The notes below the pieces were generated by a model. That model made no database searches and was not told the DNA's origin. It saw only the letters and a list, made by a program, of their open reading frames with translations. Shown piece after piece: positions 17,457 through 35,522 of a stretch of DNA of 64,000 bases. The stretch spans positions 306,971-370,970 of the forward strand of contig NZ_JAAAMI010000003.1 of the NCBI RefSeq assembly GCF_010500845.1. Direction: 5' to 3'. The stretch is from Flagellimonas sediminis. Its GTDB lineage: Bacteria; Bacteroidota; Bacteroidia; Flavobacteriales; Flavobacteriaceae. A program made the position numbers and the translations under genes. Within the stretch, counting starts at the first letter, position 1. Each line of letters opens with the position of its first letter.

Positions 17457-17561
17457 TCTGCTCTTTTTGAATTGATATGGTGTTATATGGCTTTATAATC
17501 AATTGATTATGTATTAATTATAAATTTTTCAAATTATAAAATTATGAATAAAACAGTAATA

Positions 17562-17582
17562 TGTTGTACCTATGTTGTACCT
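17562..17582. repeat. Left copy of paired TGTTGTACCT motif (candidate integrase arm site)
   Basis: Two TGTTGTACCT units in tandem, separated by one A. The same 21 bases occur in the same orientation at 35679-35699 near the other end. Their position just inside both ends, and the arm-binding domain seen in the integrase, suggest arm-type binding sites. Confidence 0.65.
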
Positions 17583-17602
17583 TTGAGTCAAATCTCACGG
17601 CA

Positions 17603-18817
17603 ATGGCATCAAGTATAAAGGTAACCCTTCGCAAAAAACCGAACAAACAGGGTGAGTATCCGCTTGTCCTTCGTATTACCAAGGATAGACGCTCTACCTA
17701 TCTCTATACTGGTCAATACATAGACCTTAAATATTGGGATGAAACTAATAGAACCGTACGCAAATCACATCCTAATGCGGTACGATTAAATAATCTGCTG
17801 TTAGTCAAACTAGCCGAAGCAAATAAAACCCTTCTTGCTTTGACCTCCGAAAAAAATGATTATTCTTCCCAATCCATAAAAAAAGAAATTACTACGCCTT
17901 TGTCGAAGGTTACCTTCAAACAAATGGCCGATGCTTATCTGGAAGAACTCAACGCAAACAAAAAAATCAATCGATATAATACCGATAAGGCGCGTATTAA
18001 TCATTTATTGCGCTTTGCTCAAAATAATTATCTGACTTTCAGAGAAATCGATGAAGCGTTTCTTAGACGCTTTATAAGCTATTTGAAAGGCGAAAAAAAG
18101 CTTTCTCCTCGTAGCGTGATTAACACCTTGATCGTGATACGAACGCTTTATAATCGGTCGATTAAACAAGGTGTTATTGAGCGCAAACATTATCCCTTCG
18201 GTAAGGATAAAATCCGAATTAAGTTTCCTGAAACTGAAAAAGTCGGTTTGAACAAAGATGAGATACAGGCTATTGAGGCACTAGATGCCCTTACGGCACA
18301 GGAAGCCCATGTGCGTAACGTTTGGCTTTTCAGTTTCTATTTGGCGGGGATGCGAGTTGGCGATGTAATCAATATTAGGTGGTCCGATATCTATGATGGT
18401 CGCTTACATTATCGCATGAATAAGAATGCAAAGCTTTTATCCTTGAAACTTCCCGAAAAGGTTATCCCAATAATTGGGAACTACAAGGAAGATAAAAAAA
18501 GCGAGGATGATTTTATTTTTCCCGAAATGAAAAAGGCAAATTTGAAAAATGCTCGGGACGTATTGGCTAAAACAAAAACGGCTACCAAAAAATTTAATAA
18601 ATACCTTTCAAGAGTTGCGGATAAAGCGAAAATTGATAAAAAACTGACCATGCATATTGCACGCCATAGTTTTGGTAATATAGCAGGGGATGCCATTCCG
18701 CTTCAGATGTTGCAAAAATTGTATCGCCATACCTCCATTACCACTACAATAAACTATCAAGCGAACTTCATGCATCAAGATACAGATGATGCCCTTGATA
18801 AAGTGATTAATTTTTAA
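17603..18817 (+). CDS. Tyrosine recombinase/integrase of the element
   Basis: The ATG at 17603 is chosen because the product then starts MASSIKVTLRKKPNKQGEY, the usual opening of Bacteroidota integrases; the longer frame from 17561 would run through the paired repeat motif. The 404-residue protein has an N-terminal arm-DNA-binding domain (about 1-95), a SAM-like core-binding domain (about 100-210) and a catalytic domain with Arg in LAGMRVGDVINIRW, HxxR in HIARHSFGN, a later His in YRHTSI and the nucleophilic Tyr in TTTINYQ. It reads into the element from the distal (left) end and should recombine the tRNA-Leu anticodon-arm core. Confidence 0.95.
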   Translation: MASSIKVTLRKKPNKQGEYPLVLRITKDRRSTYLYTGQYIDLKYWDETNRTVRKSHPNAVRLNNLLLVKLAEANKTLLALTSEKNDYSSQSIKKEITTPLSKVTFKQMADAYLEELNANKKINRYNTDKARINHLLRFAQNNYLTFREIDEAFLRRFISYLKGEKKLSPRSVINTLIVIRTLYNRSIKQGVIERKHYPFGKDKIRIKFPETEKVGLNKDEIQAIEALDALTAQEAHVRNVWLFSFYLAGMRVGDVINIRWSDIYDGRLHYRMNKNAKLLSLKLPEKVIPIIGNYKEDKKSEDDFIFPEMKKANLKNARDVLAKTKTATKKFNKYLSRVADKAKIDKKLTMHIARHSFGNIAGDAIPLQMLQKLYRHTSITTTINYQANFMHQDTDDALDKVINF

Positions 18818-19264
18818 CTTTTGTTAAAATATTTTTCTAAATTTTCCTTTTCATTTGCCAAATCCAAAAGATTTGTCAGACTTCACAAACTCCCAAGCCT
18901 GCGGGCATAGCACTTACTATCCTGTTTGGTGGATCATTGTTACGGCCTGGGCTTTCTCCGGCCTAATTGCCCATTCTCGCATCAACAGTTCATAACCATT
19001 TCCGGTTTTTCCAATCAATTCTTTTTTTTTTTTTTTTTTTTGGCTCTATTGAAATTTTGAGAAGTTGTTTTGAGAAAATAGATTCCAAGTTGATGTCACT
19101 ATAGCTGTTTATTCTTGTTTTAGACCAGATGAATTTTTGATCGAAAATTAATTTTATCAAATTATTTAGAATCAGTACAAATAATATGGGATGTGATATT
19201 TGTTTTGCTAAATAAATGTCATATTCGTAATTTCAGTACTTTCATTATAAATAACTAGCAACTT
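18818..19264. other. 447-bp intergenic region with 20-T homopolymer and a coding-like remnant
   Basis: Between the integrase and the hydrogenase small subunit there is no full gene. On the minus strand, 18917-19021 reads as 34 sensible residues (beginning ELIGKTGNGYELLMREW) up to a stop, and it is immediately preceded by a run of 20 identical bases (T at 19022-19041 on the plus strand). This looks like the tail of a decayed gene whose upstream part is gone; I do not recognise the family. The last 70 bp hold the candidate hydrogenase promoter. Confidence 0.4.
19204..19235 (+). promoter_or_regulatory. Candidate Bacteroidota-type promoter of the hydrogenase operon
   Basis: TTTG at 19204-19207, a 20-bp spacer, then TAATTTCA at 19228-19235, which matches 6 of 8 positions of the Bacteroidota minus-7 consensus TAnnTTTG. 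The implied transcript start is about 25 bp before the small-subunit ATG. No other convincing promoter is seen between here and the end of the operon. Confidence 0.45.
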
Positions 19265-20227
19265 ATGGCAAATGTACTATGGTTACAAGGAGGTGCATGC
19301 AGTGGCAACACCATGTCCTTTTTGAACGCCGAGGAACCGACCGTGGTGGAACTCATTACAGACTTTGGTCTGAACATTTTGTGGCACCCGACAACAGGCT
19401 TACAGATAGGGGACCAGGTTCAGGATCTTCTAAAAGACATTATTGCCGGTAAAGTTCAAATGGATATCCTTGTGTATGAAGGTTCCCTTATCCAAGGTCC
19501 GAACAACACCGGTTCTATGAATTTCTTTGCCGACCGTCCTATGATGGAATGGGTGAAGGAATTATCTAAAGTGGCAGGTTACGTGGTCGCCATCGGTGAT
19601 TGTGCTACCTGGGGCGGTATTCCGGCGGTCCCTCCAAACCCTAGTGAATCTACAGGATTGCAATTCCACAAAAAGAAAAAGGGTGGTTTTTTGGGTGCCA
19701 ACTACGTTTCAAAAGGCGGTTTGCCGGTAATCAATATACCTGGTTGTCCGGCGCACCCGGATTGGATTACCCAGATTCTCGTTGCCATTTCCGTGGGAAG
19801 AATCGGGGATGTGAAAATTGATGATTATCATAGACCCAAGACATTCTTCACCGATTTTGTACAAACGGGCTGTACGAACGTCGTAAACTTTGCACAAAAA
19901 GTGGACGGTGGCTTCGGTAAGCGTGGCAACGGATGCCTATTCTATGAAGTAGGCTGTAGGGGGCCGATGACCCGGGCAAGTTGCAATAATATATTATGGA
20001 ACAGACAGTCGAGCAAAACGCGGGCCAATCACCCTTGCCTGGGCTGTACGGAACCTGGTTTTCCACATCACGACCTGAAAAAGGGAAGTATTTTTAAGAC
20101 CATGAAATATGTGGGAGGCTTCCCTATGGAAGTGCCCACGGGAAGAAACAGGGTGGCCTATTATCTGGAGGCCGGTTTCCAAAAGATAATGCCAACCAAT
20201 CATAGGGTCCAGGAAGGTTCAAAATAA
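19265..20227 (+). CDS. hupS: [NiFe]-hydrogenase small subunit, group 2a (Hup/Huc) type
   Basis: The 320-residue electron-transfer subunit. It begins directly with MANVLWLQGGACSGNTMSFL and has no Tat signal, unlike periplasmic group 1 enzymes; this and the close similarity to cyanobacterial HupS place it with the cytoplasmic group 2a enzymes. Proximal-cluster residues: Cys12, Cys113 (GDCATWGG) and Cys161 (PGCPAHPDW); the usual second Cys of the CxxC is Asn15. Medial and distal cluster candidates are Cys203, 224, 231, 240, 258 and 261 (HPCLGC). Mycobacterial Huc, a high-affinity group 2a enzyme, has three 3Fe-4S clusters, which would fit the missing fourth proximal Cys. It is the first gene of the operon, 22 bp before the large subunit. 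Confidence 0.95.
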   Translation: MANVLWLQGGACSGNTMSFLNAEEPTVVELITDFGLNILWHPTTGLQIGDQVQDLLKDIIAGKVQMDILVYEGSLIQGPNNTGSMNFFADRPMMEWVKELSKVAGYVVAIGDCATWGGIPAVPPNPSESTGLQFHKKKKGGFLGANYVSKGGLPVINIPGCPAHPDWITQILVAISVGRIGDVKIDDYHRPKTFFTDFVQTGCTNVVNFAQKVDGGFGKRGNGCLFYEVGCRGPMTRASCNNILWNRQSSKTRANHPCLGCTEPGFPHHDLKKGSIFKTMKYVGGFPMEVPTGRNRVAYYLEAGFQKIMPTNHRVQEGSK

Positions 20228-20249: not shown

Positions 20250-21842
20250 ATGTCAGTTAAAGAATTAAATATATCCCCGGTCGGTCGTGTAGAAGGCGAT
20301 TTGGACGTCAAGGTCTATATCGATAACGGTAAGGTGACCCGTGCACATACCCAAGCGGCCATGTTCAGGGGGTTTGAGAAGATAATGGAAGGCAAGGACC
20401 CGCAATCGGGTCTTATCGTGACGCCAAGGATCTGTGGGATCTGTGGAGGATCCCACCTATATTGTGCGTCTTCCGCCCTTGATACTGCATGGGGAACCAA
20501 GTTGACCCCCAATGCCCTGTTATTACGTGCCATTGGCCAGGCTTCCGAAACATTGCAAAGTATTCCAAGATGGTACTATGCCATTTTTGCTACCGATTTG
20601 GCCAATAAAAAGTTTGCCGATAAACCGCTTTACAAGGAGGTGGTAAAACGTTGGGCAGCCTATGTGGGCGAAACCTTCCAAACAGGATTGACGGCGAGTG
20701 CTCTTCCTGTTCAGATCTATGCATTGTTCGGTGGGCAGTGGCCCCATTCGAGCTACATGGTGCCCGGTGGCGTTATGTGCGCCCCTACCTTAAAGGATAT
20801 CACCCGGGCACATGCCATTTTGGCGCAGTTCAAGAACGATTGGCTCGAACCGGTCTGGTTGGGCTGCTCCATCGAGCGTTATATGGAAATCAAGACGTGG
20901 GACGATATGTTGGCCTGGGTAGATGAGAATGAATCCCAACGAAATAGTGATTTAGGATTATTTATACGAGCTGGTCTGGAGTTCGGATTGGATAAATTCG
21001 GTCAGGGAGTAGGTAAGTTTTTGGCAACGGGAACGTACCTGCACAAAGATATGTACAACAATCCTACGATCGAGGGCAGAAATGCCGCTTTGATTTCGTC
21101 TAGCGGATTCTTCGATGGAGAAAATTACCATGAGTTCGATCACTTGAAGGTAAGTGAGCATGTGAAGCATTCATGGTTCAACAATCAAGCGGATGGGCTG
21201 CACCCGTGGGATGAACCGCTTCCTACACCGGCCCAATCGAGCACTTTAGAGCATACAAATTTCGATGGCCAGTATAGTTGGGCAAAAGCACCTCGTTATG
21301 ACGGGCATGCGGCAGAGGCCGGTCCTTTGGCAAGGGTGGTCATGAACGCCAATCCGAATAACAAGGAACATCAAATTAGAGACCCCTTGTTTGGTGATAT
21401 CATTAAAAAACTCGGTCCAAGCGTATTTACAAGGGTCTTGGCCAGGGTTCATGAAGCCCCGAGAATCTATAAGTTCATTGAACAATGGCTGTCGGAGATC
21501 GATCTTGATGGGGAGTTTTATACAAAACCCGTTGAAAAGGATGGCAAAGGTTTTGGTGCCACGGAAGCGGCCCGTGGAGCATTGGCCCACTGGATAGAAA
21601 TAAAGAACGGGGTCATCAAAAACTATCAGGTAATGGCACCAACCACTTGGAATGTCGGCCCACAGGATGGCAATGATAATCCGGGCCCTATAGAGACCGC
21701 ATTGCTGGGCACGACCATTGAAGATCCGCTCGACCCTGTTGAGGTGGGTATAGTGGCTCGCTCGTTCGATTCGTGTTTGGTATGTACGGTACACGCACAT
21801 GATGCGCAGAGCGGAGTGGAGCTGTCAAGGTTCAAACTATAA
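20250..21842 (+). CDS. hupL: [NiFe]-hydrogenase large (catalytic) subunit, group 2a type
   Basis: The 530-residue subunit holding the Ni-Fe(CN)2CO site. The L1 motif is RICGICGGSH (Cys62, Cys65) and the L2 motif DSCLVCTVHAHD (Cys509, Cys512). The four cysteines bind the metals. A 15-residue tail follows His515 and should be removed by the maturation protease encoded next, after nickel insertion. Other family landmarks are SPVGRVEGD at the N-terminus and GFGATEAARGALAHW near residue 440. H2 oxidation is the expected physiological direction, since group 2a enzymes are uptake hydrogenases; this is family knowledge and not visible in the sequence. Confidence 0.96.
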   Translation: MSVKELNISPVGRVEGDLDVKVYIDNGKVTRAHTQAAMFRGFEKIMEGKDPQSGLIVTPRICGICGGSHLYCASSALDTAWGTKLTPNALLLRAIGQASETLQSIPRWYYAIFATDLANKKFADKPLYKEVVKRWAAYVGETFQTGLTASALPVQIYALFGGQWPHSSYMVPGGVMCAPTLKDITRAHAILAQFKNDWLEPVWLGCSIERYMEIKTWDDMLAWVDENESQRNSDLGLFIRAGLEFGLDKFGQGVGKFLATGTYLHKDMYNNPTIEGRNAALISSSGFFDGENYHEFDHLKVSEHVKHSWFNNQADGLHPWDEPLPTPAQSSTLEHTNFDGQYSWAKAPRYDGHAAEAGPLARVVMNANPNNKEHQIRDPLFGDIIKKLGPSVFTRVLARVHEAPRIYKFIEQWLSEIDLDGEFYTKPVEKDGKGFGATEAARGALAHWIEIKNGVIKNYQVMAPTTWNVGPQDGNDNPGPIETALLGTTIEDPLDPVEVGIVARSFDSCLVCTVHAHDAQSGVELSRFKL

Positions 21843-21922: not shown

Positions 21923-22402
21923 ATGAAGACGGCTATAATGGGTTTTGGAAATCCCGTTCGAAGCGATGATGCGGTGGGTATTTATGTAATCGAGCAGCTT
22001 CGCGGGAAACTTTCCGAATCTGAAGACATCAGCATTTTTGATATGGGTACCGCGGCCTTCGAAGTATTGTTCGGGTTAAAGGGGCATGGCCGAATTATTT
22101 TGGTCGATGCGGTTTTGAACAGTGGCGAACCGGTGGGAACCCTATTCAAACTGCCTGCAGAAGAAGTAATGAAAGCCCCTGAGGACGACCCGATGGTCTT
22201 TCTCCACGGAATGAAATGGAACCAGGCGCTGTCGTATGCGAAAAAGATTTTGCAGAACGAGTATCCGGATGATATTCAGGTGTACTTGATCGCGATCGAA
22301 AACACGAAACTGGAGGTGGATATAAGCGATAAGGTCAAGGAAGCCGGGAACAAAGTGGTACTGCATATTTTGGAGGATTTAAATCAATCGATCCCGACGT
22401 GA
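21923..22402 (+). CDS. Hydrogenase maturation protease (HupD/HyaD/HupW family)
   Basis: A 159-residue endopeptidase. The N-terminal GFGNPVRSDDAVG is the family signature, and the nickel-sensing residues correspond to Asp in the DDAVG, Asp in ILVDAV and His in FLHGMKWN. It removes the C-terminal extension of the large subunit once nickel is in place. It follows the attenuator and overlaps the next gene by 4 bp (GTGA), starting a run of overlapping accessory genes. Confidence 0.93.
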   Translation: MKTAIMGFGNPVRSDDAVGIYVIEQLRGKLSESEDISIFDMGTAAFEVLFGLKGHGRIILVDAVLNSGEPVGTLFKLPAEEVMKAPEDDPMVFLHGMKWNQALSYAKKILQNEYPDDIQVYLIAIENTKLEVDISDKVKEAGNKVVLHILEDLNQSIPT

Positions 22403-22719
22403 ATGCCAAGGTAAAGCTGAAATCCTCGCACATTTATCTGGATAGTGGTTTGGTCGAAGCCATTTTTGGGGAAGTTAATTATGCATATATAGCCTATGTC
22501 GAGGAACAGCGGAAAATTTTGATTACGCCCGTTACCAGCCAATGGTTTGTTAAAATGTACAAGCCCGTCCAGTTTCTATTAAAATCCCGTAACTTAAAAG
22601 GCGATAAAACCTTGGCGATCCGGGAAATTTTGATAGATAATGACCTGGATACGGGCGATAGGGATTTGGAGTATGAAATCATAGAAAAAACAAGTTTGAT
22701 AAAAGTGGGCATTTCATGA
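22399..22719 (+). CDS. Unknown 106-residue protein in the hydrogenase operon
   Basis: It starts with GTG at 22399 inside the stop of the protease gene (GTGA) and its own stop overlaps the next start (ATGA), so it is translated together with both. The product (MNAKVKLKSSHIYLDSGLVE ...) is a mix of short strands and helices with no signal peptide, membrane segment or Cys motif; its central IAYVEEQRKILITPV suggests a small beta domain. I do not recognise a family. Its conserved position between the protease and the TPR gene argues for a role in hydrogenase assembly or as an extra subunit. Confidence 0.75.
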   Translation: MNAKVKLKSSHIYLDSGLVEAIFGEVNYAYIAYVEEQRKILITPVTSQWFVKMYKPVQFLLKSRNLKGDKTLAIREILIDNDLDTGDRDLEYEIIEKTSLIKVGIS

Positions 22720-22973
22720 CAAAAAAAGAAAATGACTGGCTTATCGATGCCGAGGTGCAGTACAGGATTACCCCTGTAAAAGGGCGTTGGGAAGTTTCGC
22801 TCATTTTTATCAATACCAGGGACCCTAACCAAGTTTTGATCCAGACCATAGGGGATTACAGAACGGAACGTTTGGCCGAAATTTATGGAAGGAACATGCA
22901 GCAGACGGCGGCCAAAGATCCAAGGGGCACACAAAAGGTAAACAAAGATGCTTACGATATTAACAACAACTAG
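22716..22973 (+). CDS. Unknown 85-residue protein in the hydrogenase operon
   Basis: It starts with ATG at 22716, overlapping the preceding stop by 4 bp, and overlaps the TPR gene by 26 bp. The product is soluble: a beta-rich first half (EVQYRITPVKGRWEVSLIFI), a helix (RTERLAEIYGRNMQQTAAKD) and a short polar tail ending DINNN. No Cys, signal or membrane segment. I do not recognise a family. Mycobacterial Huc has a small third subunit, HucM, that builds a scaffold; whether either small gene here plays that role cannot be told from the sequence. Confidence 0.75.
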   Translation: MTKKENDWLIDAEVQYRITPVKGRWEVSLIFINTRDPNQVLIQTIGDYRTERLAEIYGRNMQQTAAKDPRGTQKVNKDAYDINNN

Positions 22974-24429
22974 CACGGGGCAACAGGTAGAGGAAGCGAT
23001 TGCATCCATAGACAGGCTGGGCGAGCTGGTCACGATTGTTGAAGGGGCGGAGGCCGTTGAAGACCTGAAAAGTATGGTGGTAGAGACCGATACCATCAAA
23101 ATTCCTTTTGATTGGTACGATGTGGAACCACCTTACGTGTTTCCCGAGCTTCCTTTTACCCGGAACAATGTACTTGCCTTGGTCTTTTATAAGATTGGCA
23201 ACCATCAAAAAGCCTTTGAATTTGTAAACGAGGATGGCCCGTTATACCATCACCTTTTGATTGCGACACATATGCAATTCGGGTATGATATTTCCGAGGA
23301 CATGCTTGGTTTCGCCCATAAGCATTCGTTGCATAATTTAGCGATACTCCATCACTATGGAGTATTACGGCAGAAGGCCGCGTTTTTAGAAATCAAGGCC
23401 CGATATACCGAGGCCTTGGACCGGGCGGAGAATGACGAGATAAAGGTTTTTACCGCCAAGCATTACCTGAATTTATTGTTGGATGCCGGTTTATTGTTGG
23501 ATGCCGTTGAAGTGGCCAAAAACCATCGTGCGATCGCTATTTCGGATGAAGCCGTCCATGCGATGGAGGTGCATTTGGCCGCCATTCGAATGGCACGGCT
23601 CTCATTGCCCCATGACCATGCGTTGTTGGGCTCCCTTTTGGAACTGCAAATGCGTAATATAGCGTTTTACGAAACTAAAGGGCTCCCTATTCAAGCAGGA
23701 CTTTTGTTGATCGATGCCGCGGAAGTCGCAAATTTTAAAGAAGATTTTATTACCTCTAAAGACCTCATAAACAAGGCCATTCAATACTTCAAGCAAGAAG
23801 ATGTTCCCGAGTTTTTGGGCGAGGCGGGTTTTAAAAAGGCGGTGTTGCTCTATACCTGGTCCAAAAACGGCAGTCCCCAATATTATAAGGCGGCCATCAA
23901 TGCTTTTCAAGACGTGTTGAAAGTGTTCAAGCGCGATACCCATCCACAAAAATTTGCCGATGTACATCACAATCTGGCACTGATCTATTCCGAGATTCCC
24001 GTGAGGCCCGAGGAAAAACCTATGTGGACCGCATTCTGTGCCTCTTCCTTTAAAGAGGTATTGGCTTTTTATACGAAAGAGGAATATCCGTACGAATACG
24101 CCATGGCGAACCATAATTATGCCACCGCTTTAATGTATTTTCCCCCTGCGAAGCTACATGACAATCTGGAAAAGGCATCGGGGCTTTTTGCCGAAGCATT
24201 GGAAATACGAACAGCCCAAGCGTATCCGTTGGAACGGGCATTGACCCTGATCAACCAATTGGAACTGTATTGGCTGACCCACAATAAGGACAGTTCGGAA
24301 GAATTGAGAAAGTATGAAGAAATGAAATCCAAGGCCGAAGAAATCAGAGGCTTGGTCAATGATCCCGATCTGATTGCCCAAGCCGATGATCATTTAAAGG
24401 AACTGGAAAAAGTCAAAAGCTTGATCTAA
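22948..24429 (+). CDS. TPR-repeat protein of the hydrogenase operon
   Basis: A 493-residue, mainly helical cytoplasmic protein with tandem helical hairpins typical of TPR repeats (LVFYKIGNHQKAFEFV, AKHYLNLLLDAGLLLDAVEV, FADVHHNLALIYSEI, YAMANHNYATALMYF). It overlaps the upstream gene by 26 bp, and its stop shares a base with the hypA start (TAATG). TPR proteins accompany group 2a hydrogenase genes in other bacteria, from memory of those clusters, and may act as a chaperone or docking scaffold. Exact role unknown. Confidence 0.82.
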   Translation: MLTILTTTSTGQQVEEAIASIDRLGELVTIVEGAEAVEDLKSMVVETDTIKIPFDWYDVEPPYVFPELPFTRNNVLALVFYKIGNHQKAFEFVNEDGPLYHHLLIATHMQFGYDISEDMLGFAHKHSLHNLAILHHYGVLRQKAAFLEIKARYTEALDRAENDEIKVFTAKHYLNLLLDAGLLLDAVEVAKNHRAIAISDEAVHAMEVHLAAIRMARLSLPHDHALLGSLLELQMRNIAFYETKGLPIQAGLLLIDAAEVANFKEDFITSKDLINKAIQYFKQEDVPEFLGEAGFKKAVLLYTWSKNGSPQYYKAAINAFQDVLKVFKRDTHPQKFADVHHNLALIYSEIPVRPEEKPMWTAFCASSFKEVLAFYTKEEYPYEYAMANHNYATALMYFPPAKLHDNLEKASGLFAEALEIRTAQAYPLERALTLINQLELYWLTHNKDSSEELRKYEEMKSKAEEIRGLVNDPDLIAQADDHLKELEKVKSLI

Positions 24430-24776
24430 TGCACGAGACATCCATTGTAAACAGCATTATGCGAACCCTTGAACAAGAGTTTGAAACGGAGAAGTTGAAC
24501 AAGATGAAGGCCATTTATTTAAAGGTGGGAATTCTATCGAACATAGAGCCACGCCTTCTACATAATGCCTATAGCGCCTATCATTTGACGAATCCGGGGT
24601 ATCATCATGTAAGCCTGCATATTGAATCGACCAGTCTTAAGATACAGTGCGAGGTGTGCAACCATATCACCGATGTTAAAAATTACCGGTTTATATGTGA
24701 CCATTGCGGACGACCGAGCAAAAATGTGATCCAGGGGGAAGAAATGCTGATCCACAAAGTGGAGTTTGACGACTGA
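24429..24776 (+). CDS. hypA: Hydrogenase nickel-insertion protein HypA
   Basis: A 115-residue protein starting MHETSIVNSI; His2 is the nickel ligand. The zinc site is formed by two CxxC pairs, CEVC and CDHC, near residues 74-95. With HypB it delivers nickel to the large-subunit precursor. Its ATG overlaps the stop of the TPR gene. Confidence 0.95.
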   Translation: MHETSIVNSIMRTLEQEFETEKLNKMKAIYLKVGILSNIEPRLLHNAYSAYHLTNPGYHHVSLHIESTSLKIQCEVCNHITDVKNYRFICDHCGRPSKNVIQGEEMLIHKVEFDD

Positions 24777-24802
24777 CAAAAAATTGATTTAAAGAAAAGA
24801 CC

Positions 24803-25498
24803 ATGATAGAAAAATCTAACAAAGCGGCACGGGGCACCGTACAATGCGAAAACACCAACATCAACTTGCTGAAGGCGAATGATTTTGTGGCGGATATCAT
24901 CAAAAAGGAAATGGCGAGGACCAAGACCCTTTTGATCAATATCACCTCCTCGGCAGGTAGCGGCAAGACCACCCTGATGCAAAAAACCGCAGAAAAGCTG
25001 AAGGACAAGATCAAGATGGCCGTTATGGTCGGCGACCTTGAAACCGAGCGCGATGCCCAGCGCATTCGCGAAACTGGAATTCAGGCCCTGCAGATCGTTA
25101 CCGGGGGCATTTGCCATTTGGAAGCGCAAATGGTCCATCAGGTGCTCGATCAGTTCGATCTGGAAACAATCGATCTCTTGTTCATTGAAAATGTAGGCAA
25201 TCTGGTGTGCCCTTCTTCCTTTGATCTGGGAGAGGATTATCGGGTGACCCTGATGGCGACCACGGAAGGGGACGATAAGCCCAAGAAATACCCAAAGATG
25301 TTTTTGACCAGTGATATGATGTTGGTCTCCAAGGCCGATCTGTTGCCCTATGTTCCTTTTTCGGTGGAGGCCGTTACCAAAGACGCGCGGGAGGTCAACC
25401 ACGAACTGGAAGTCATTCAGATTTCATCACTTACCGATGAAGGAATCGATGAATGGTGCGACTGGCTACTTGAAAAAGTACAAGAGAAGAAAGCATAA
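24803..25498 (+). CDS. hypB: Hydrogenase nickel-insertion GTPase HypB
   Basis: A 231-residue GTPase: P-loop SSAGSGKTTLM (about residue 50), GDLETERDAQRI, metal/GTP switch GGICHLEAQM and ENVGNLVCPSSFDLGE, and the base-recognition motif SKADLL. It has neither the N-terminal CxxCGC site of the E. coli protein nor a His-rich nickel store, so nickel storage must rely on uptake (see the permease at 31313). It follows hypA by 26 bp. Confidence 0.95.
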   Translation: MIEKSNKAARGTVQCENTNINLLKANDFVADIIKKEMARTKTLLINITSSAGSGKTTLMQKTAEKLKDKIKMAVMVGDLETERDAQRIRETGIQALQIVTGGICHLEAQMVHQVLDQFDLETIDLLFIENVGNLVCPSSFDLGEDYRVTLMATTEGDDKPKKYPKMFLTSDMMLVSKADLLPYVPFSVEAVTKDAREVNHELEVIQISSLTDEGIDEWCDWLLEKVQEKKA

Positions 25499-25505
25499 TG
25501 CCTGA

Positions 25506-27767
25506 ATGCCACAAACATTTCAACTTATTATTTCAGGTCAGGTTCAAGGGGTGGGTTTCCGCCCCTTTGTGTATCAGCTTGCGCGAAAACTCGATCTAAA
25601 GGGCTCGGTCTGCAATAACGAAAACGGGGTGTTGATCTTGATCAATGCATCTCGGGAGCGGGCCGTTGAATTTCTAAATGCTGTATTGGAGAAGGCCCCG
25701 GAGGCTTCGATCGTTCAATCCCATTCCATTTTGGAAACGGATCAACTGCAATTTGATGATTTTCAGATAACCACCTCGAAAACCCTACATCAAATTGACA
25801 TACCATTGACCCCCGATTTTGCGATATGCGAATCGTGTAAAACCGAGATCAGGGATACGAGCGATTCCCGGTTCGGTTATCCTTTCACTACCTGTACGAA
25901 CTGTGGCCCCCGGTATGCGATAACCACGAAATTCCCTTTTGAGAGGGAACATACAACGGTTGCCTCGTTTCAAATGTGTGCGTCATGTCAAGAAGAATAT
26001 TCCAATCCCGCTGATCGAAGATTTCATTCACAGACCAACAGTTGTGCGGAATGTGGCATACGACTTTGGCTCACAAGCGCATCGGGAGAACCGGTTTCCG
26101 TCGTTCGGAGTGAACTTTTAAAAAAGACTTCCGGACTTATTTCCGACGGAAATATCATCGCCATTAAGAATACCAACGGGTATCTATTGTGCTGCGATGC
26201 CGGTAACAAGGCGGTTATTGAGCGTTTGCGAGGTAAAAAGCAACGCCCTGCAAAACCCTTTGCCCTTTTGTATCCTTCCCTGGAAAGGGTCAAAAACAAT
26301 TTTGAACTGAACTCCGCAGAAGAGCAAGCCTTGTTATCCCCCGTCGCTCCCATTGTGATTTTGAACCCAAAGGATGAAATCAAAGGGCTGGAACAAGAAA
26401 GTATCGCCCCAGGATTGGGACAATTGGGGGTTATGCTCCCCTCATCGGCGTTATTGACCCTTTTGATGGATGAGTTACAGGCCCCGATAATCGCCACTAG
26501 TGGAAATATGCATGGTTCCCCGATCATTTCTTCGGAAAAAGAGGCCGTTGGGAAATTGTCCGAAGTTGCCGATTATTTTTTGCACCACAATCTGGAAATT
26601 TCGTTTCCACAGGATGATTCCGTCATTCGGTTCGCGGGTGAACAACAGATCATGCTCCGGCGTTCCCGTGGATCGGCACCTAATTATATGGGGCGGTCCT
26701 ATTCGGGCAAAAAGAAAGTTTTGGCAATGGGGGCCCATCTGAAAAGCTCGTTTGCCTTCGTTCCCAATTCCCATACGTATGTAAGTCCGTATTTTGGAAA
26801 CCTGGACAGCTATGACGTTTCGGAACGGTTAAAAAAAAACATCCATCAATTCATACAACTATTTCAAACATTGCCCGAGGTTGTTTTGATCGATTCGCAT
26901 CCCCAGTATCAAAGTAGCGTTCTTGGAAGGGAATTGTCTAAAGTATGGAATGCGGAGCTTATCCCGGTCCAGCATCACAAAGCCCATTTTGCCAGCGTAT
27001 TGGGCGAACACGGTCTTTTCGATTCCAAGGAAAAAATACTGGGTGTCGTCTGGGACGGCACCGGATTTGGGGAAGATGCCGCTATTTGGGGAGGGGAGTT
27101 TTTTTCGTATGATAATTACGAAATGAAACGCCTGGACCATTTCGAATATGTGGATTGGCTGGCGGCGGATAAAATGGCAAAAGAACCCCGGCTGTCATTG
27201 CTCGCCATGCTTCCTGAAGAAGAAAGGGGCCTTGCGCGGGGCAAGTTTTCCGAAACGGAATGGAAGGTCTATACCAAAATGTTGGAAGGTAATAAACTGA
27301 AAACCTCCTCAGTGGGGCGATTGTTCGATGCCGTTGCATCCCTTTTGGATACTGTCGATATTGCTTCGTATGAAGGGCAGGCCGCCATGCTATTGGAAAA
27401 TAGGGCAGGAGATTGCAAAGGAGATGGATGTATTGATTTTTTGGAAGGTGTGGCCTACGAGACCATTCCCTCTAAAAAGCTCATCAAAAACATTTGGAAA
27501 GCAAAAGAAGCGGGAGTTTCAAAGGCCCATATTGCCCATAGTTTTATCCATACCCTGGCATTGGCCGTCCTGAAAATGGCCAAACAAGGTGGCTATTCCA
27601 TAATAGCATGCAGCGGGGGTGTTTTTCAAAATGCCCTGCTGGTCGAAAAGCTCGTGAAATTGGCGGAAAAGGCCAAAGCCGATTTAAAATTTAATCGTAT
27701 ATTGTCTAGTAACGACGAGAACGTTTCGTTTGGTCAGTTAGCTTATTATCAGCATATTAAAAAATAG
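25506..27767 (+). CDS. hypF: Carbamoyltransferase HypF
   Basis: A 753-residue protein with the complete HypF order: acylphosphatase domain with GQVQGVGFRPFVYQLA (residues 9-24), two zinc fingers (CESC ... CTNCGPRYAI and CASC ... CAEC, about 107-180), a YrdC-like domain (about 205-385), and a Kae1-like carbamoyltransferase domain with metal-binding VQHHKAHFASVLGEH (about 490) and VVWDGTGFGEDAAIWGGEF. It makes the carbamoyl group that HypE turns into the CN ligands of the active site. Length and motifs are normal; it appears intact. Confidence 0.96.
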   Translation: MPQTFQLIISGQVQGVGFRPFVYQLARKLDLKGSVCNNENGVLILINASRERAVEFLNAVLEKAPEASIVQSHSILETDQLQFDDFQITTSKTLHQIDIPLTPDFAICESCKTEIRDTSDSRFGYPFTTCTNCGPRYAITTKFPFEREHTTVASFQMCASCQEEYSNPADRRFHSQTNSCAECGIRLWLTSASGEPVSVVRSELLKKTSGLISDGNIIAIKNTNGYLLCCDAGNKAVIERLRGKKQRPAKPFALLYPSLERVKNNFELNSAEEQALLSPVAPIVILNPKDEIKGLEQESIAPGLGQLGVMLPSSALLTLLMDELQAPIIATSGNMHGSPIISSEKEAVGKLSEVADYFLHHNLEISFPQDDSVIRFAGEQQIMLRRSRGSAPNYMGRSYSGKKKVLAMGAHLKSSFAFVPNSHTYVSPYFGNLDSYDVSERLKKNIHQFIQLFQTLPEVVLIDSHPQYQSSVLGRELSKVWNAELIPVQHHKAHFASVLGEHGLFDSKEKILGVVWDGTGFGEDAAIWGGEFFSYDNYEMKRLDHFEYVDWLAADKMAKEPRLSLLAMLPEEERGLARGKFSETEWKVYTKMLEGNKLKTSSVGRLFDAVASLLDTVDIASYEGQAAMLLENRAGDCKGDGCIDFLEGVAYETIPSKKLIKNIWKAKEAGVSKAHIAHSFIHTLALAVLKMAKQGGYSIIACSGGVFQNALLVEKLVKLAEKAKADLKFNRILSSNDENVSFGQLAYYQHIKK

Positions 27768-27770
27768 ATT

Positions 27771-28046
27771 ATGTGTTTGGCGATTCCAGGAAAAATTAAA
27801 AGTATAGAGACCAGGTACAATGGTACGGTACGGATGGCAAAAGTGTCGTTCGGGGGCATTACCAAAGAGGCAAGCCTCGAAATGTTACCGGATGCCGATG
27901 TCGATGATTATGTGCTGGTGCATGTTGGCGTTGCGATCAGCAAGGTCAACGAGGAAGAAGCGCAAAAAACGTTCCGGTATTTGGAAGAGATCGGCGAATT
28001 GGGCGAATTGGAAGATGTAGATGAGTATTTACCTAAACCGGAATAA
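27771..28046 (+). CDS. hypC: Hydrogenase assembly chaperone HypC
   Basis: A 91-residue protein with the invariant start MCLAIPGKI; Cys2 holds the iron-cyanide complex with HypD. It ends in an acidic tail. It starts 3 bp after hypF and is 2 bp before hypD. Confidence 0.95.
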   Translation: MCLAIPGKIKSIETRYNGTVRMAKVSFGGITKEASLEMLPDADVDDYVLVHVGVAISKVNEEEAQKTFRYLEEIGELGELEDVDEYLPKPE

Positions 28047-28048
28047 CG

Positions 28049-29143
28049 ATGAAGTACCTATCGGAATATCGCGACCCTGAATTGGCGAAAAAATACTTGG
28101 AGGAAATCAAGAATACGGTTTCCCGCCCGTGGTCGATTATGGAGGTCTGCGGCGGCCAAACGCACAGTTTGGTGAAGAACGGCATCATCGAAATGCTGCC
28201 CGATAAGATTACCATGATCCATGGGCCCGGTTGCCCGGTCTGTGTGACCCCTTTGAACCTGATCGACAAAGCGGTTTATCTGGCCTTGGAAAAAGGGGTC
28301 GTCCTATGTTCTTTTGGCGATATGCTCCGGGTTCCCGGATCGCAAAAAAGTTTGTTGGAGGCCAAGGCCGAAGGTGCCGATGTACGAGTGCTCTATTCTC
28401 CGCTTGAGGCTGTAAAGATTGCCGAGGATAATCCTGATAAAGAGGTGGTTTTCTTTGCTGTCGGTTTTGAAACCACGGCTCCGGCCAATGCCCTGTCCGT
28501 TGTGCATGCGCATCGAAGGGGCGTAAAAAACTATGCGATCTTGGCATCGCACGTACTGGTTCCCCCGGCGATAAAGGCCGTGATCGACGATGAGGAAAGC
28601 AAGATAGACGGATTTTTGGCCGCAGGGCACGTTTGTACGATCATGGGCAATACCGAATACCATCCGTTGTCGGCAACATATAAAGTACCGATAGTGGTCA
28701 CCGGTTTTGAGCCTTTGGACGTTTTGCAGGGGATCTTAATGGTCGTGCGGCAATTGGAGCAGAGCAGGTCACAAGTCGAAAATCAATATGCGCGTATCGT
28801 TCGTGAAGAAGGAAATCCCGATGCGCAAAAGATCATCAATGAGGTCTTTGAAATCCGTAATCAGGTGTGGCGCGGTATTGGTGAAATACCCGATAGTGGC
28901 TACGCCGTTCGTGAAAAGTATGCGGCCTACGATGCGACCAAAAAGTTCGATGTTGCCATAAAGGAAGCCCCCGAGAACCCACTCTGTATTTCAGGGCAAA
29001 TTATGAAGGGAATCAAAAAACCTTTCGAATGTTCGCAATTCGGGAAAACGTGCAAGCCTACGAATCCGCTGGGCGCCCCGATGGTAAGCAGTGAAGGGGC
29101 CTGTGCCGCTTATTACCATTTTTCAGGGATGGTAGAAGCCTAA
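28049..29143 (+). CDS. hypD: Hydrogenase iron-cofactor assembly protein HypD
   Basis: A 364-residue 4Fe-4S protein that, with HypC, builds the Fe(CN)2CO unit. Family motifs are present: MEVCGGQTH (about residue 31), HGPGCPVCVTP (about 60), FFAVGFETTAP, AAGHVCTIMG, and the C-terminal cysteine set CISGQIMKGIKKPFECSQFG plus EGACAAYY. It appears complete. Confidence 0.96.
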   Translation: MKYLSEYRDPELAKKYLEEIKNTVSRPWSIMEVCGGQTHSLVKNGIIEMLPDKITMIHGPGCPVCVTPLNLIDKAVYLALEKGVVLCSFGDMLRVPGSQKSLLEAKAEGADVRVLYSPLEAVKIAEDNPDKEVVFFAVGFETTAPANALSVVHAHRRGVKNYAILASHVLVPPAIKAVIDDEESKIDGFLAAGHVCTIMGNTEYHPLSATYKVPIVVTGFEPLDVLQGILMVVRQLEQSRSQVENQYARIVREEGNPDAQKIINEVFEIRNQVWRGIGEIPDSGYAVREKYAAYDATKKFDVAIKEAPENPLCISGQIMKGIKKPFECSQFGKTCKPTNPLGAPMVSSEGACAAYYHFSGMVEA

Positions 29144-29158
29144 TCGATCTAGAAATAA

Positions 29159-30220
29159 ATGTCGGAGAATAAAAAATTACGCATGCAACTGCAATGCCCT
29201 ATGCCCAAACTCGACTTTGATGTCATTACGTTGGGGCATGGAAGCGGTGGGGTATTGACCAATAAGCTATTGGATAGCGGGGTTTTTGACCTGTTGGGCA
29301 ATGATATACTCGATGAACGCCATGATGGGGCCTTTTTGGAACTGCACGGTAAGACCGCTTTTTCAACGGACAGTTTTTTGGTTTCCCCTATCTTTTTTCC
29401 GGGGGGTAACATCGGCGAACTGGCCGTAAACGGTACGGTCAACGACCTGGCAATGTGTGGGGCAATGCCCAGATATTTATCTTTGAGCTTCATTATCGAA
29501 GAAGGGCTTCCCGTAAAGGAATTTTGGGAGATACTGGTCGCCATTAAGTTCGCGTGCGAGAGGGCCGGTGTTCAGGTGGTCACGGGAGATACCAAAGTGG
29601 TCGAAAAAGGAAAAGGGGACAAATTATTCATCAATACCTCTGGTGTCGGTCCCATTCATCCCAAGGCAACGATCGGCGCAAAGAATATTCAAATGGGCGA
29701 TAGAATAATCATAAGTGGCAATATTGCTGCCCACGGTATGGCCATTATGTCTGTTCGGGAAGGTCTGGAATTCGATTCCGAGATCCGGAGCGATACCACC
29801 AACCTGAACCATTCCGTTATCGGCCTTATCGAAAAGTTCGGTCCGGATATTCATTTATTGACCGATCCGACCCGGGGCGGTGTCGCGACCGTGTTAAAGG
29901 AAATCGCCCGATCAACGGGGGTAGGCATGGATATTTTTCAAAAGGACCTGCCAATCGATGATCAGGTGGCAAACGCATGCGAACTGTTGGGCCTGGATCC
30001 TTTGTACGTTGCCAATGAGGGACTTTTTATCGCTTTTGTTTCCGAGGCCAGGGCCGATGCCGTTTTGGCCGAATTGCGAAAGGATGAAAATGGACGGAAT
30101 GCCCAAATTATAGGAAGCGTAGTCAAAGAACACCCCAAGCAGGTCATACTGGAAAGTGCCATTGGCGGCAAGCGCGTGGTCAATATGCTGCCCGGGGAGC
30201 AACTGCCCAGAATCTGCTAG
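29159..30220 (+). CDS. hypE: Carbamoyl dehydratase HypE
   Basis: A 353-residue PurM-like ATPase starting with MSENKKLRMQ and carrying LGHGSGGVLTNKLL, VNGTVNDLAMCGAMP and LLTDPTRGGVATVLKE. The last residues PRIC end in the invariant cysteine (Cys353) on which the thiocarbamate becomes thiocyanate. It starts 15 bp after hypD and is one base before the NHL gene, completing hypA-B-F-C-D-E. Confidence 0.96.
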   Translation: MSENKKLRMQLQCPMPKLDFDVITLGHGSGGVLTNKLLDSGVFDLLGNDILDERHDGAFLELHGKTAFSTDSFLVSPIFFPGGNIGELAVNGTVNDLAMCGAMPRYLSLSFIIEEGLPVKEFWEILVAIKFACERAGVQVVTGDTKVVEKGKGDKLFINTSGVGPIHPKATIGAKNIQMGDRIIISGNIAAHGMAIMSVREGLEFDSEIRSDTTNLNHSVIGLIEKFGPDIHLLTDPTRGGVATVLKEIARSTGVGMDIFQKDLPIDDQVANACELLGLDPLYVANEGLFIAFVSEARADAVLAELRKDENGRNAQIIGSVVKEHPKQVILESAIGGKRVVNMLPGEQLPRIC

Positions 30221-30221
30221 C

Positions 30222-31316
30222 ATGAACTTTGAAACCCTCGGTCGGCACGTCAGCGATTCCTATGTTTTTAAAGGTTCCCAAAAGATGCCCTTTTTGGCAC
30301 CACGGGGGGTATATACTGCAAAAAATCACCTCTTTGTTTCCGACACCGGACGGAACCGTGTTTTCATTTGGAACGGACTGCCAACTGCCGAATATCAAGA
30401 ACCCGATGTTGTATTGGGCCAGTCCGATGTATCGGAAACCGGGAGAAATTCCGGCGGCCAAGTGACGGCAGGTACGTTGCATTATCCCTCGGGAATCTGG
30501 AGCAACGGAACGTTGCTGATCGTTTGTGACGCCTGGAACCATCGGGTGCTTATTTGGAATTCGTTGCCCAGGGAAAACGGACAACCGGCAGATGTGGTCA
30601 TAGGACAGCCCGATTTTATATCGAACCTACCCAATGTACGTGGGATCGGTAAAGACCCAACGGCACGAACCCTACATTGGCCCTATGGTGTTTTCTCCGA
30701 TGGCGGGCGGCTATGGATCGCCGATACGGGAAATCGTAGAGTATTGTATTACGGGAATATCCCCAAAACCAATTATGTGCCTGCCGATAAGGTCATCGGG
30801 AAAGCCGACTTTATGACTCGTGATTATGGGCACCGTGATCCCATTTGGCCGTATTCCGTCAAGGTGAACGGTAAAAATCAAATGGTAGTTGCCGATACCC
30901 AATTTTATAGGAACCTCCTTTGGAAAAATGCGGACGAAGCTTTTTTGAAACCGGCCGATCTGATCATCGGACAGCCCGATTTTGAGGCCAACGGACAAAA
31001 TCAATTCGGATTGTTTCCCTCTTCAAGATCATTGAACTGGACGTACGATGCCTGTTTCCATAAGGACGGCCTTTTGGTGAACGACACGGGCAATAGCAGG
31101 ATATTGTGGTTTGATAAGATTCCATCCGAAAACAATCCCGAAGCTGCTGCCGTTATAGGAAAACGGGATTTTAATACCGGGAGCGAGAACAAAGAGACCC
31201 TGATGGGAACTTCAAGCTCTTTGTACTGGCCCTTTTCAATCGCCACGGAAGAAGATCGGTTATTCATTGCCGATACGGGCAATCACCGTATCGTGATCAC
31301 CAAGATGGATTTCTAG
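30222..31316 (+). CDS. NHL-repeat protein of the hydrogenase operon
   Basis: The ATG at 30222, one base after the hypE stop, is chosen over an in-frame start at 30156 inside hypE. The 364-residue product is a beta-propeller of about five to six NHL-type blades, each with a recognisable segment such as LFVSDTGRNRVFIWN, LWIADTGNRRVLYYG and LFIADTGNHRIVI, and repeated VVIGQPDF/VIGKADF strands. There is no signal peptide, so it is probably cytoplasmic like the enzyme. NHL proteins occur in other high-affinity hydrogenase clusters (family knowledge); the function is not established. Confidence 0.88.
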   Translation: MNFETLGRHVSDSYVFKGSQKMPFLAPRGVYTAKNHLFVSDTGRNRVFIWNGLPTAEYQEPDVVLGQSDVSETGRNSGGQVTAGTLHYPSGIWSNGTLLIVCDAWNHRVLIWNSLPRENGQPADVVIGQPDFISNLPNVRGIGKDPTARTLHWPYGVFSDGGRLWIADTGNRRVLYYGNIPKTNYVPADKVIGKADFMTRDYGHRDPIWPYSVKVNGKNQMVVADTQFYRNLLWKNADEAFLKPADLIIGQPDFEANGQNQFGLFPSSRSLNWTYDACFHKDGLLVNDTGNSRILWFDKIPSENNPEAAAVIGKRDFNTGSENKETLMGTSSSLYWPFSIATEEDRLFIADTGNHRIVITKMDF

Positions 31317-32850: not shown

Positions 32851-33240
32851 ATGGCTAGCAACAAAGGTGGTAGAAAACGTCTCGGGGACAGGAAAAGGGA
32901 GCATGCCATAACGCTTCGGTTCAACGGTACGGAACTGGAAAAGGTCAAGTCCATATTGCAATCCTATAATCTCGATTTTAGGAAAAGGGGAACGGTCGGT
33001 CCCTTCCTGAGAAAATTGATTTTGAACGGAAAGACCATAAAGCAGAAACAGGTTCCCGACGGTCTTTCCAACCTCAGTTACCAGATCAATAGGATAGGCG
33101 CCAACATCAACCAACTCGTCAAAATAGCGAACTATAAGAACATGCGAAGCCCGAACTCGAACCTCGAAAGGGAATTGCAAAAGGCCAACGAATTGATGCT
33201 CGAACTGATAGAAACGATAAACGCCAAAAACCAGAAATGA
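32851..33240 (+). CDS. mobC: MobC-like relaxosome accessory protein
   Basis: A 129-residue basic protein with an N-terminal ribbon-helix-helix-like segment (HAITLRFNGTELEKVKSILQ) and the MobC core GTVGPFLRKLILNG and LSYQINRIGANINQLVKIAN. It should bind the origin of transfer and help the relaxase nick DNA. Its stop overlaps the relaxase start (ATGA at 33237), a usual arrangement. Confidence 0.88.
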   Translation: MASNKGGRKRLGDRKREHAITLRFNGTELEKVKSILQSYNLDFRKRGTVGPFLRKLILNGKTIKQKQVPDGLSNLSYQINRIGANINQLVKIANYKNMRSPNSNLERELQKANELMLELIETINAKNQK

Positions 33241-35522
33241 TAGCGAGGATCCTATATCGGGAAAATGTACAGGGCGTACTGGACTATGTAACGGGCAAAT
33301 CGCAAAGCACCATACTCGGTTTTCAAAATACCTATTCCGATACCGACACGGACATGAAGTTTTTCGGCAGGGTACTCTACCATCTGGGCAATCGCCACGA
33401 TTCCGAAAAAAGGTATACGCACATCTCCCTCAACCTTCCCCGTGGCGAGCATTTGAACGACACCGACTTTTTCGAGCTCTCCAAAAATTATATGGACCAT
33501 ATGGGCTATGGCGAACAGCCCTATGTGGTCATCAGACATCACGATACCAAACATGAGCATGTGCATATCGTCTCTTCCACCATCAAGGAAGACTGTTTGC
33601 AGATCAACCTTTCCAACGATATAAGGCGGAGCATAGCGACCCAGAAATACCTCGAAAAGGAATTCGGGCTTTCCCCGTCGCCAGATACGAAACAGACCAA
33701 GAAACTTCCCAAATACGAAATGCCAGAATTTCGGAACCGGGACATCAACGGGGTCAGGTTCTATATACAGGACATAACGAACATCGCTTTGCAAAAGTAC
33801 AAGGTGCGCAGTTTTGAGGAACTTAAGGAACACTTAAAGAATCATCATATCGAATTAAGGACGGTCGAGCGGAACGGCAGGATAGGAGTGTCCTATGGAG
33901 TCGCGGTAAAGGATGGCTATAAATCAAGGTTCATCAACGGGTATACCGTCCATCCCCAATTGAGCGGTCCAAAACTGCAAAAGGTCTTTGAACGGAACCA
34001 AAGCTCGAAACTGTTGCCGATGGTCAAAAAACGGCTGGAAAAACAACTACAGACCACTTACGGACTTTTCAGGACGATAGACCCCGAACATTTGCCAGAC
34101 ATCTTGGGAGCCTATCAAAACCTGGATTGCAAGATCGAATATGACAGGGAAGAAAATGCCATAGACTTTACCATTTATGACAAGTCGGGCTACGTCCTCA
34201 GAGCGGAAGAAATAGCACACACTATCGGAATCCGTCAAAACCCTCAACTCTTCAAGACCGAACACACCCAGATAAACGGGGAAAGCAAGCAGCTAAAACT
34301 GGAACTTCAAAAGTGTTACAAGGAAGCCTATAAGGACACCTATCATAGTTCGGGGAGGCAGTTTCTTTTCTCCGAACATATTGAAAAGATGCCCATAAAA
34401 CCGATAGTAACGGAAATGGTCAAATCTGAACGTTTCCAATTTATCAAAAAGTATCTGCATATCAGCAACCAAGAATTGAGCAAACTGATACGGGAACAAT
34501 TCAAAATCTCAAAGGACAAGCTGTACGTTTCGGAATCGGTCAAGGAAGAACAGCAGTTAAAAGGGAAGGTCGAACTTATAAAACAGGCTAGCGACAAGCG
34601 GTTATTCGATACGCCAAACCAACGGAAAATCCTTTTCGAGCTTGTTCGAAGCCTTGGCACCGATTATGGTAGTGGCGTTCTACGATATTCGAATTCCCAT
34701 CGATATCAGGTCAAACTGAACTTGGGCCAAATAAAATTGCCCAAGCAAATCGACTTTTATGCTTCCCCTTTCTTCATAAAGGAGAACGAAAAAATATTGG
34801 ACGGACTTCTGAACGACAATACCGAAAAAGAAATCCGCCCTAGCCCGACGGCGATATTTCTGCCATTGATGTTCCCGAACCTTTACGCGGCCATGGAACA
34901 AAGATACAGGCAACGGTTTGAACGGCTGGGCCTTAAATCCTATCATAAATATGCTGAACGTATACAGGTATCCTTCGAGAAATCCCCGAAAGATTATATA
35001 GAGTTTTTCAATGCCAAAGGATTCTATTTTGAAAGAAGGGAAGAGAGGCTTTGTGTCGGGTCGATATATTCCAAGTATCCGGTAAGCGTTCCGATCGCCA
35101 CGAAAATACAAGCCTATCTGGAATCGTCGAAAGACCTGAATATGGTTTTGGACGGGCAACCGGAAATCTTGGAGAACATCGAGACATCCGGGCGGGACGA
35201 TTTGAAAAGCCTTTGGGCCACACACTTAATAGAGCGGGGGCAGTACAAAAAGGCGGCCTATCTGTTCGTTTTGGACGGGGTAAGGCCCAACTTTCCCATA
35301 CAAATTCTGGAACATCATATGGAAAACGGGTTGAAGGAGGCTTTGGTCTCGGTTTCCCAAAAACAGATGGCCAACGAACAGGCACGTATTTTACGTAAGG
35401 GAGTCTATGCTCTTGGAAATATATTGGGAGGCAAAGGCTACAAAGAGGAAGAACTTTTCAATGGGTTCAAGGACGAGTTCACGGATTTCTCGAAATATAA
35501 GGGGAACAGTCTAGGGTTTTGA
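33237..35522 (+). CDS. MOBP-type relaxase/mobilization nuclease
   Basis: A 761-residue protein. The first 130 residues are the relaxase domain: an opening MIARILYRENVQGVLDYVTG with the likely catalytic Tyr, LYHLGNRHDSEKRYTHISLN, and the metal-binding three-His motif HHDTKHEHVHIV. The remaining 600 residues are helical and poorly conserved, as in other Bacteroidota relaxases. It nicks oriT and pilots the strand during mobilization. Full length, no internal stop. It is the last gene before the right end of the element and is followed by a short terminator. Confidence 0.92.
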   Translation: MIARILYRENVQGVLDYVTGKSQSTILGFQNTYSDTDTDMKFFGRVLYHLGNRHDSEKRYTHISLNLPRGEHLNDTDFFELSKNYMDHMGYGEQPYVVIRHHDTKHEHVHIVSSTIKEDCLQINLSNDIRRSIATQKYLEKEFGLSPSPDTKQTKKLPKYEMPEFRNRDINGVRFYIQDITNIALQKYKVRSFEELKEHLKNHHIELRTVERNGRIGVSYGVAVKDGYKSRFINGYTVHPQLSGPKLQKVFERNQSSKLLPMVKKRLEKQLQTTYGLFRTIDPEHLPDILGAYQNLDCKIEYDREENAIDFTIYDKSGYVLRAEEIAHTIGIRQNPQLFKTEHTQINGESKQLKLELQKCYKEAYKDTYHSSGRQFLFSEHIEKMPIKPIVTEMVKSERFQFIKKYLHISNQELSKLIREQFKISKDKLYVSESVKEEQQLKGKVELIKQASDKRLFDTPNQRKILFELVRSLGTDYGSGVLRYSNSHRYQVKLNLGQIKLPKQIDFYASPFFIKENEKILDGLLNDNTEKEIRPSPTAIFLPLMFPNLYAAMEQRYRQRFERLGLKSYHKYAERIQVSFEKSPKDYIEFFNAKGFYFERREERLCVGSIYSKYPVSVPIATKIQAYLESSKDLNMVLDGQPEILENIETSGRDDLKSLWATHLIERGQYKKAAYLFVLDGVRPNFPIQILEHHMENGLKEALVSVSQKQMANEQARILRKGVYALGNILGGKGYKEEELFNGFKDEFTDFSKYKGNSLGF

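Follow-up and report, generated by a model that had tools for sequence, protein, structure and literature searches.

What do two small genes of no named family do inside a hydrogenase operon? In the window analyzed here, a stretch of 64,000 nucleotides of Flagellimonas sediminis DNA, orf106 and orf85 lie within a group 2a (Huc-type) [NiFe]-hydrogenase operon whose genes are all on the plus strand, in the order hucS, hucL, HycI-family protease, orf106, orf85, TPR gene, hypA, hypB, hypF, hypC, hypD, hypE and NHL-repeat gene (Table 1). The protease gene and orf106 overlap by 4 bp, orf106 and orf85 by 4 bp, and orf85 and the TPR gene by 26 bp. ORF calls bore out these overlaps, the sizes of 106 and 85 residues and all coordinates given in the first-pass annotation. 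We refer to the protein families of orf106 and orf85 as A and B; the two genes probably encode undescribed assembly helpers.

Table 1. Genes of the group 2a hydrogenase operon, with positions in the window
Feature	Coordinates	Strand	Basis
HucS, hydrogenase small subunit	19265..20227	+	Pfam, solved-structure match
HucL, hydrogenase large subunit	20250..21842	+	Pfam, alignment to Huc
HycI-family maturation protease of large subunit	21923..22402	+	Pfam, NCBIfam
orf106, family A, 106 codons, GTG start	22399..22719	+	ORF call
orf85, family B, 85 codons, ATG start	22716..22973	+	ORF call
TPR protein	22948..24429	+	Weak own Pfam TPR match (E 0.069); same-place Thermus relative annotated TPR
hypA, hypB, hypF, hypC, hypD, hypE	24429..30220	+	Named by reading; tblastn to plasmid genes so annotated; Pfam for hypC alone
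NHL-repeat protein of group 2a cluster	30216..31316	+	Pfam-scanned

The closest solved structure for both HucL and HucS is Mycobacterium smegmatis Huc (E 1.2e-205 and 2.6e-133, respectively), so that the assignment to group 2a is well supported. Alignment to Huc, whose large-subunit chain stops at the matching residue, places the mature end of HucL at H515, and the 15 residues that follow (AHDAQSGVELSRFKL) are the expected substrate of the protease. Upstream of hucS, an AT-rich block at window positions 19160-19226, roughly TTTATYTAGAATMATTCCAAAT and TTTTGYYAAATAAGTGTCATATT as read by eye, is common to several Flavobacteriaceae and is a possible promoter and regulatory site. A tyrosine-type integrase-like gene lies just upstream of hucS (window 17561-18817) and a relaxase-like ORF beyond the operon (window 33237-35522); both names come from reading the sequence, and the operon may be mobile. 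The same genome also encodes the large subunit of a different [NiFe]-hydrogenase (G000:C29:164115-164840; 36% identity over 223 residues), while A and B each match once in this genome, both times in the window.

Both orf106 and orf85 are real genes under purifying selection, with pN/pS values of 0.13-0.22 for orf106 (four relatives) and 0.08-0.16 for orf85 (six relatives). An antisense ORF of 201 codons (22494-23099) extends over both genes; its frame carries 2-11 stops in nine of nine relatives, counted with indels uncorrected, versus one, its own end, in the window. It is hardly conceivable that the two are spurious ORFs: nothing speaks for this except their small size and absent family names, and it is contradicted by the pN/pS range of 0.08-0.22 and by the conservation of the same slot across phyla.

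The absence of family names held up as the first-pass annotation had described it. No accepted Pfam match was found for either window protein, 28 members of A or 23 members of B, no accepted NCBIfam match for the window proteins or the 28 A members, and no accepted PHROGs match for the window proteins and four relatives; a confident match to a known accessory family was thus seen in none of the three databases. The best sub-threshold matches were SBB_T7 for B (best E 0.0055, in 3 of 23 members) and a P450 model (E 0.03) and NYD-SP12_N (E 0.042) for A, and no protease family in Pfam matched any of the 28 A members. Neither window protein contains a hydrophobic stretch of the transmembrane kind. 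The isoelectric point of A ranges from 4.4 to 9.3, its basic character being inconsistent among members, and its most conserved stretch, LLKxRNxxGD[KR], begins the second half of the protein. B has a conserved KDxRGT stretch close to the C-terminus. The conserved C-terminal tail of B partly overlaps the start of the TPR gene, and part of its conservation may stem from this overlap; KDxRGT occurs also in the upstream B copy of Runella (as KDQRGT), which overlaps no annotated gene.

Within Bacteroidota, the two families follow the group 2a enzyme closely. A scan for close relatives of orf85, one genome per species, gave 17 loci, from Flavobacteriaceae and their relatives among the Bacteroidota, and the protease, orf106, orf85 and the TPR gene occur in identical order in all 17. 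Among 59 genomes, our own included, orf106 was found in the same eight that encode a group 2a HucL and A in none of the four with only another NiFe enzyme. One weak partial A match (E 6e-4) in a genome lacking a group 2a enzyme (G030) was judged to be due to chance, and this locus (L009) was excluded from the counts. In a Bacteroidota sample of 395 genomes, five had a group 2a HucL (at least 78% identical) and 98 had other NiFe enzymes (at most 44% identical). The A and B profiles each matched all five group 2a genomes and, at E ≤ 0.1, none of 65 others, which comprised 45 of the 98 with other [NiFe]-hydrogenases and 20 of the 292 without any HucL match. This agrees with the earlier suggestion of undescribed, hydrogenase-dedicated components: in the samples tested, A and B occur with the group 2a hydrogenase only. 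Three Bacteroidota loci (G246, G094 and a Runella plasmid) have a B copy upstream of hucS, as a second or the only copy of B. In G094, a full-length second HucS paralogue (L087:2433-5561; 65% identical to the window HucS) sits between this upstream copy and the normal hucS.

The first-pass annotation had proposed profile searches of group 2a clusters in other phyla, and these extended A well beyond Bacteroidota. A HucL search of plasmids matched 131 records, at least 17 of them group 2a (at least 52% identity) among the matches listed. Fifteen of the 17 are from outside Bacteroidota (H3-H17); eight of these were read and, together with Runella and Hymenobacter, make up ten loci, while six Bradyrhizobium plasmids (H10-H15, of the same identity as H9, which was read) and one Roseovarius plasmid (H17) were left out. 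A adjoins the protease in all eight operons read outside Bacteroidota, which span Actinomycetota, Deinococcota, Bacillota and Alphaproteobacteria, and B is present in two of the eight. A Bacteroidota-only A profile was searched against the 2,873 ORFs (stop to stop) of the ten plasmid loci; ranks 1-9 all fell on the ORFs that adjoin the protease, and the next ORF had an E of 0.37. Two of these nine matches are training rows (Runella and Hymenobacter) and seven are independent, at E 3.7e-7 to 0.15; Mesorhizobium A was reached at E 0.15 only. The A half of the Sulfobacillus protein was missed by this profile and was reached via Thermus and Mycobacterium (phmmer MintA to ThermusA, E 7.4e-26; ThermusA to Sulfobacillus, E 1.6e-11). 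The B profile matched M. intracellulare at E 1.3e-8 and Sulfobacillus weakly at 0.26, the latter being reached by phmmer from MintB at E 8.2e-7. Profile-profile comparison gave 97.5% for Bacteroidota versus alphaproteobacterial A and 95.4% for B versus B, against 5.6% for the control of A versus B. Searches covering the whole plasmid records, but no chromosomes, gave no B match for Hymenobacter, Thermus or five alphaproteobacteria.

Across all loci counted, A is present in 39 of 39 and B in 32 of 39, although the profiles contain many of those rows. Because A led to L002-L008 and B to L010-L026, and several of these strains are nearly identical, only the 14 loci ascertained through HucL (L027-L036 and L086-L089) give a fair count. 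In these, which come from five phyla, A occurs in all 14 and B in seven of the 14. The profiles include some of these rows, and the independent test is the profile search of the ten plasmid loci; the A proteins of L032 and L035 are almost the same. The absence of B from half of these loci indicates that B is not universally needed. The A gene of Thermus thermophilus (L030:11110-11409), between the protease and the TPR gene, is unannotated in its record. In alphaproteobacterial group 2a operons, a further pair of small proteins is encoded after hucL and before the protease gene (L032:10680-11389, with equivalent positions in L033, L034 and L036). This pair ends in the motif CxxCMYY...C...C.LWRI and is possibly metal-binding; the one member scanned had no Pfam match.

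Two gene fusions bear directly on function, each seen in one plasmid record. The protease gene of M. intracellulare has 257 codons, of which about 155 encode the protease and the C-terminal remainder a full A domain, which the Bacteroidota profile matches at E 0.0055. In Sulfobacillus, the gene between the protease and the TPR gene has 165 codons and encodes A then B in a fused form. Together with the 4-bp overlaps, these fusions link the protease, A and B as one functional unit. A search of viral contigs for more protease-A fusions gave two pattern matches, neither of them a relative.

We propose, with a probability of roughly 0.6, that A and B are accessory families, as yet unnamed, that are dedicated to group 2a and act in HucL/HucS maturation with the protease and the TPR protein. 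A would assist the maturation endopeptidase as its partner or adaptor and would bind the nickel-loaded HucL precursor. Such binding would lead to the C-terminal 15 residues of HucL being cut at the right moment, for the group 2a hydrogenase only. B would take part with A and the TPR protein in a single short-lived assembly complex and might act on the HucS side, as the B copies upstream of hucS in three Bacteroidota loci may indicate. Both would leave after HucSL assembly. Parts of one report describe purified M. smegmatis Huc as having three subunits, HucL, HucS and HucM (PMC10017518), which favours a transient role of A and B, with the caveats that a 9-kDa protein can escape a gel and that M. 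smegmatis homologues of A and B stand outside our comparison.

That preparation also bears on the suggestion, made in the first-pass annotation, that one of the two proteins is the counterpart of HucM. HucM (MSMEG_2261), the scaffold of M. smegmatis Huc, resembles A and B in its small size and as an extra component of a group 2a operon, but it belongs to the DUF1641 family and is encoded upstream of hucS, whereas A and orf85 come after the protease and the upstream copies in the three Bacteroidota loci are family B, not DUF1641. The M. intracellulare operon has a true HucM as a separate gene (E 2.9e-34 to 7uus_Q) along with the protease-fused A and B; A and B are therefore additional to HucM. 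No DUF1641 match at E ≤ 1 was found in 28 A and 23 B members, and the identification with HucM was rejected. It is distinctly unlikely that A, B or both form part of the structure of the mature enzyme at all, as a HucM-like scaffold or docking subunit. Their linkage to group 2a would fit this, and another scaffold is conceivable in our own genome, which has no HucM (DUF1641) match at E ≤ 1. Yet HucM, A and B coexist in M. intracellulare, the Huc preparation is described as having three subunits (parts of PMC10017518), the PDB chains of Huc that we encountered are HucL, HucS and HucM, and an A joined to a protease would be odd for such a role.

A second function suggested earlier, docking of an electron carrier, found nothing positive in its favor. 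Parts of the literature on M. smegmatis describe the operon and report that HucE is needed for Huc activity (PMC6883350). A complete HucE (NifU-Rieske) was not found in eight Bacteroidota group 2a genomes, which gave short domain-level matches only, which leaves room for a redox or docking role of A or B at the electron exit in Bacteroidota. It is nevertheless very improbable: as had been noted, the window proteins contain no cysteines for a cofactor, none are conserved across either family, and neither model gave a convincing redox-fold match. Since no DUF1641 match was found in our own genome and no full HucE in the eight genomes, what the Bacteroidota loci and the mycobacterial cluster have in common beyond hucSL and the hyp genes is the protease, A, B, the TPR protein and the NHL protein.

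Predicted structures raise the possibility of another use for A. AlphaFold2, given 14 sequences, modeled A with confidence (best model mean pLDDT 92.5, pTM 0.85; the other four models 79-84), and the models of A and B were compared with known folds by Foldseek and VIA-align. In VIA-align, five MraZ entries ranked first for A (Z 8.1-8.5, 91-92 residues, rmsd 2.7-2.9), well ahead of B3 DNA-binding domains at Z 4.6 or lower; models that lack a clear Foldseek match typically reach a best Z of 7 to 8. MraZ was not seen by Foldseek, which returned nothing below E 0.001 for A (best E 0.6). The predicted fold of A as an MraZ/AbrB-type pseudobarrel of two swapped-hairpin repeats can thus be regarded as good but not certain. 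No sequence match of A to MraZ or AbrB was found in Pfam (0 of 28 members at E ≤ 1) or among PDB sequences, and A2 and A3 had no significant sequence relatives among solved structures (best E 0.17 and 0.16). The model of B (pLDDT 77.4) consists of three strands and one helix; Foldseek gave nothing below E 0.001 (best DHX29, E 0.032, probability 0.99, 59 columns) and VIA-align ranked AP2 first at a weak Z of 5.2; AP2/dsRBD-like domains were considered for B. The high ranks of plant AP2 for B and B3 for A were read as small folds in common, not as kinship.

DNA-binding proteins have the fold predicted for A, a point against the maturation reading. In the main rival reading, A, partnered by B, would bind DNA in the manner of MraZ/AbrB and autoregulate the hydrogenase operon. 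Beyond the MraZ and B3 ranks, the best-conserved loop of A, LLKxRNxxGD[KR], is basic, and it lies at what we take to be the position where AbrB-type proteins carry their DNA-binding loop. CalA is an AbrB-like protein. Purified CalA binds the hupS upstream region in Nostoc punctiforme, according to a part of PMC3126725. The AT-rich block kept upstream of hucS in several Flavobacteriaceae could be a site for such a regulator, but no clear operator was found upstream of hucS beyond this block. TGGG-type direct repeats were looked for in the window upstream of hucS and not found there. Fusion to a protease in M. intracellulare, the lack of any MraZ/AbrB match in Pfam or PDB sequences and a pI that is not consistently basic (4.4-9.3) further make this regulator unlikely.

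The maturation reading can accommodate the barrel in a more specific form, in which A would serve the endopeptidase as a dedicated substrate adaptor, its DNA-binding-type barrel forming a checkpoint that would read the nickel-loaded large subunit, with B and the TPR protein, in group 2a (atmospheric-H2) hydrogenases only. We hold this form tentatively, as a possibility that is rather less than even. If true, metalloenzyme maturation would use the MraZ/AbrB fold in a new role; we know of no description of this fold in metalloenzyme maturation, and a literature search gave no title on it among the matches listed.

Comparison with known systems places A and B apart from named factors. The HycI/HyaD-type maturation protease (HupW in cyanobacteria) is encoded by the neighboring gene and forms one polypeptide with A in M. 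intracellulare, but A itself matches no protease family. MraZ/AbrB pseudobarrel proteins are alike in predicted fold, while A differs from them by the lack of a sequence match, the hydrogenase-maturation operon context and the one protease fusion. The assembly factors HupGHIJ of group 1 uptake hydrogenases are likewise hydrogenase-specific, and their genes lie between the structural genes and the hyp genes, as parts of PMC3126725 describe; at the level of Pfam, A and B are set apart from them by having no accepted match. In the extended hyp-operon of Nostoc, asr0689 and asr0690 are likewise two small genes of unknown function beside TPR, NifU-like and NHL genes of the uptake hydrogenase, and a role of the extended hyp-operon genes in HupS maturation is proposed (parts of PMC2408588 and PMC3126725). 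Two transmembrane regions are reported there for asr0689/asr0690, unlike in A and B of the window, and on this ground they were rejected as homologues. Small hydrophobic genes after the alphaproteobacterial TPR gene look like candidate counterparts of asr0689/asr0690. The Nostoc genes beside hupW (alr1422 and Npun_F0373) were considered as possible relatives by their position.

A Parageobacillus group 2a locus has a hypothetical gene, IMI45_RS09615, in the same slot between protease and TPR genes (part of PMC12976888), and portions of another paper mention six proteins with unclear roles at the Parageobacillus locus (PMC6036681). We infer from gene order that IMI45_RS09615 is PhbG. "Hypothetical proteins" near hucL are mentioned in a passage of PMC7784904, and the portions of PMC2670836, PMC2799521 and PMC12727194 at hand leave A and B unnamed. 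A literature search, mostly at the level of title listings, found no paper that names either family.

Trace H2 can sustain aerobic bacteria that have group 2a hydrogenases, enzymes that also attract biotechnological interest and whose operons hold still-hypothetical genes beyond hypA-F. Because A is present in all HucL-ascertained loci and is once fused to the protease, it offers a concrete candidate for a maturation factor still missing, and it may prove useful for heterologous production of these enzymes.
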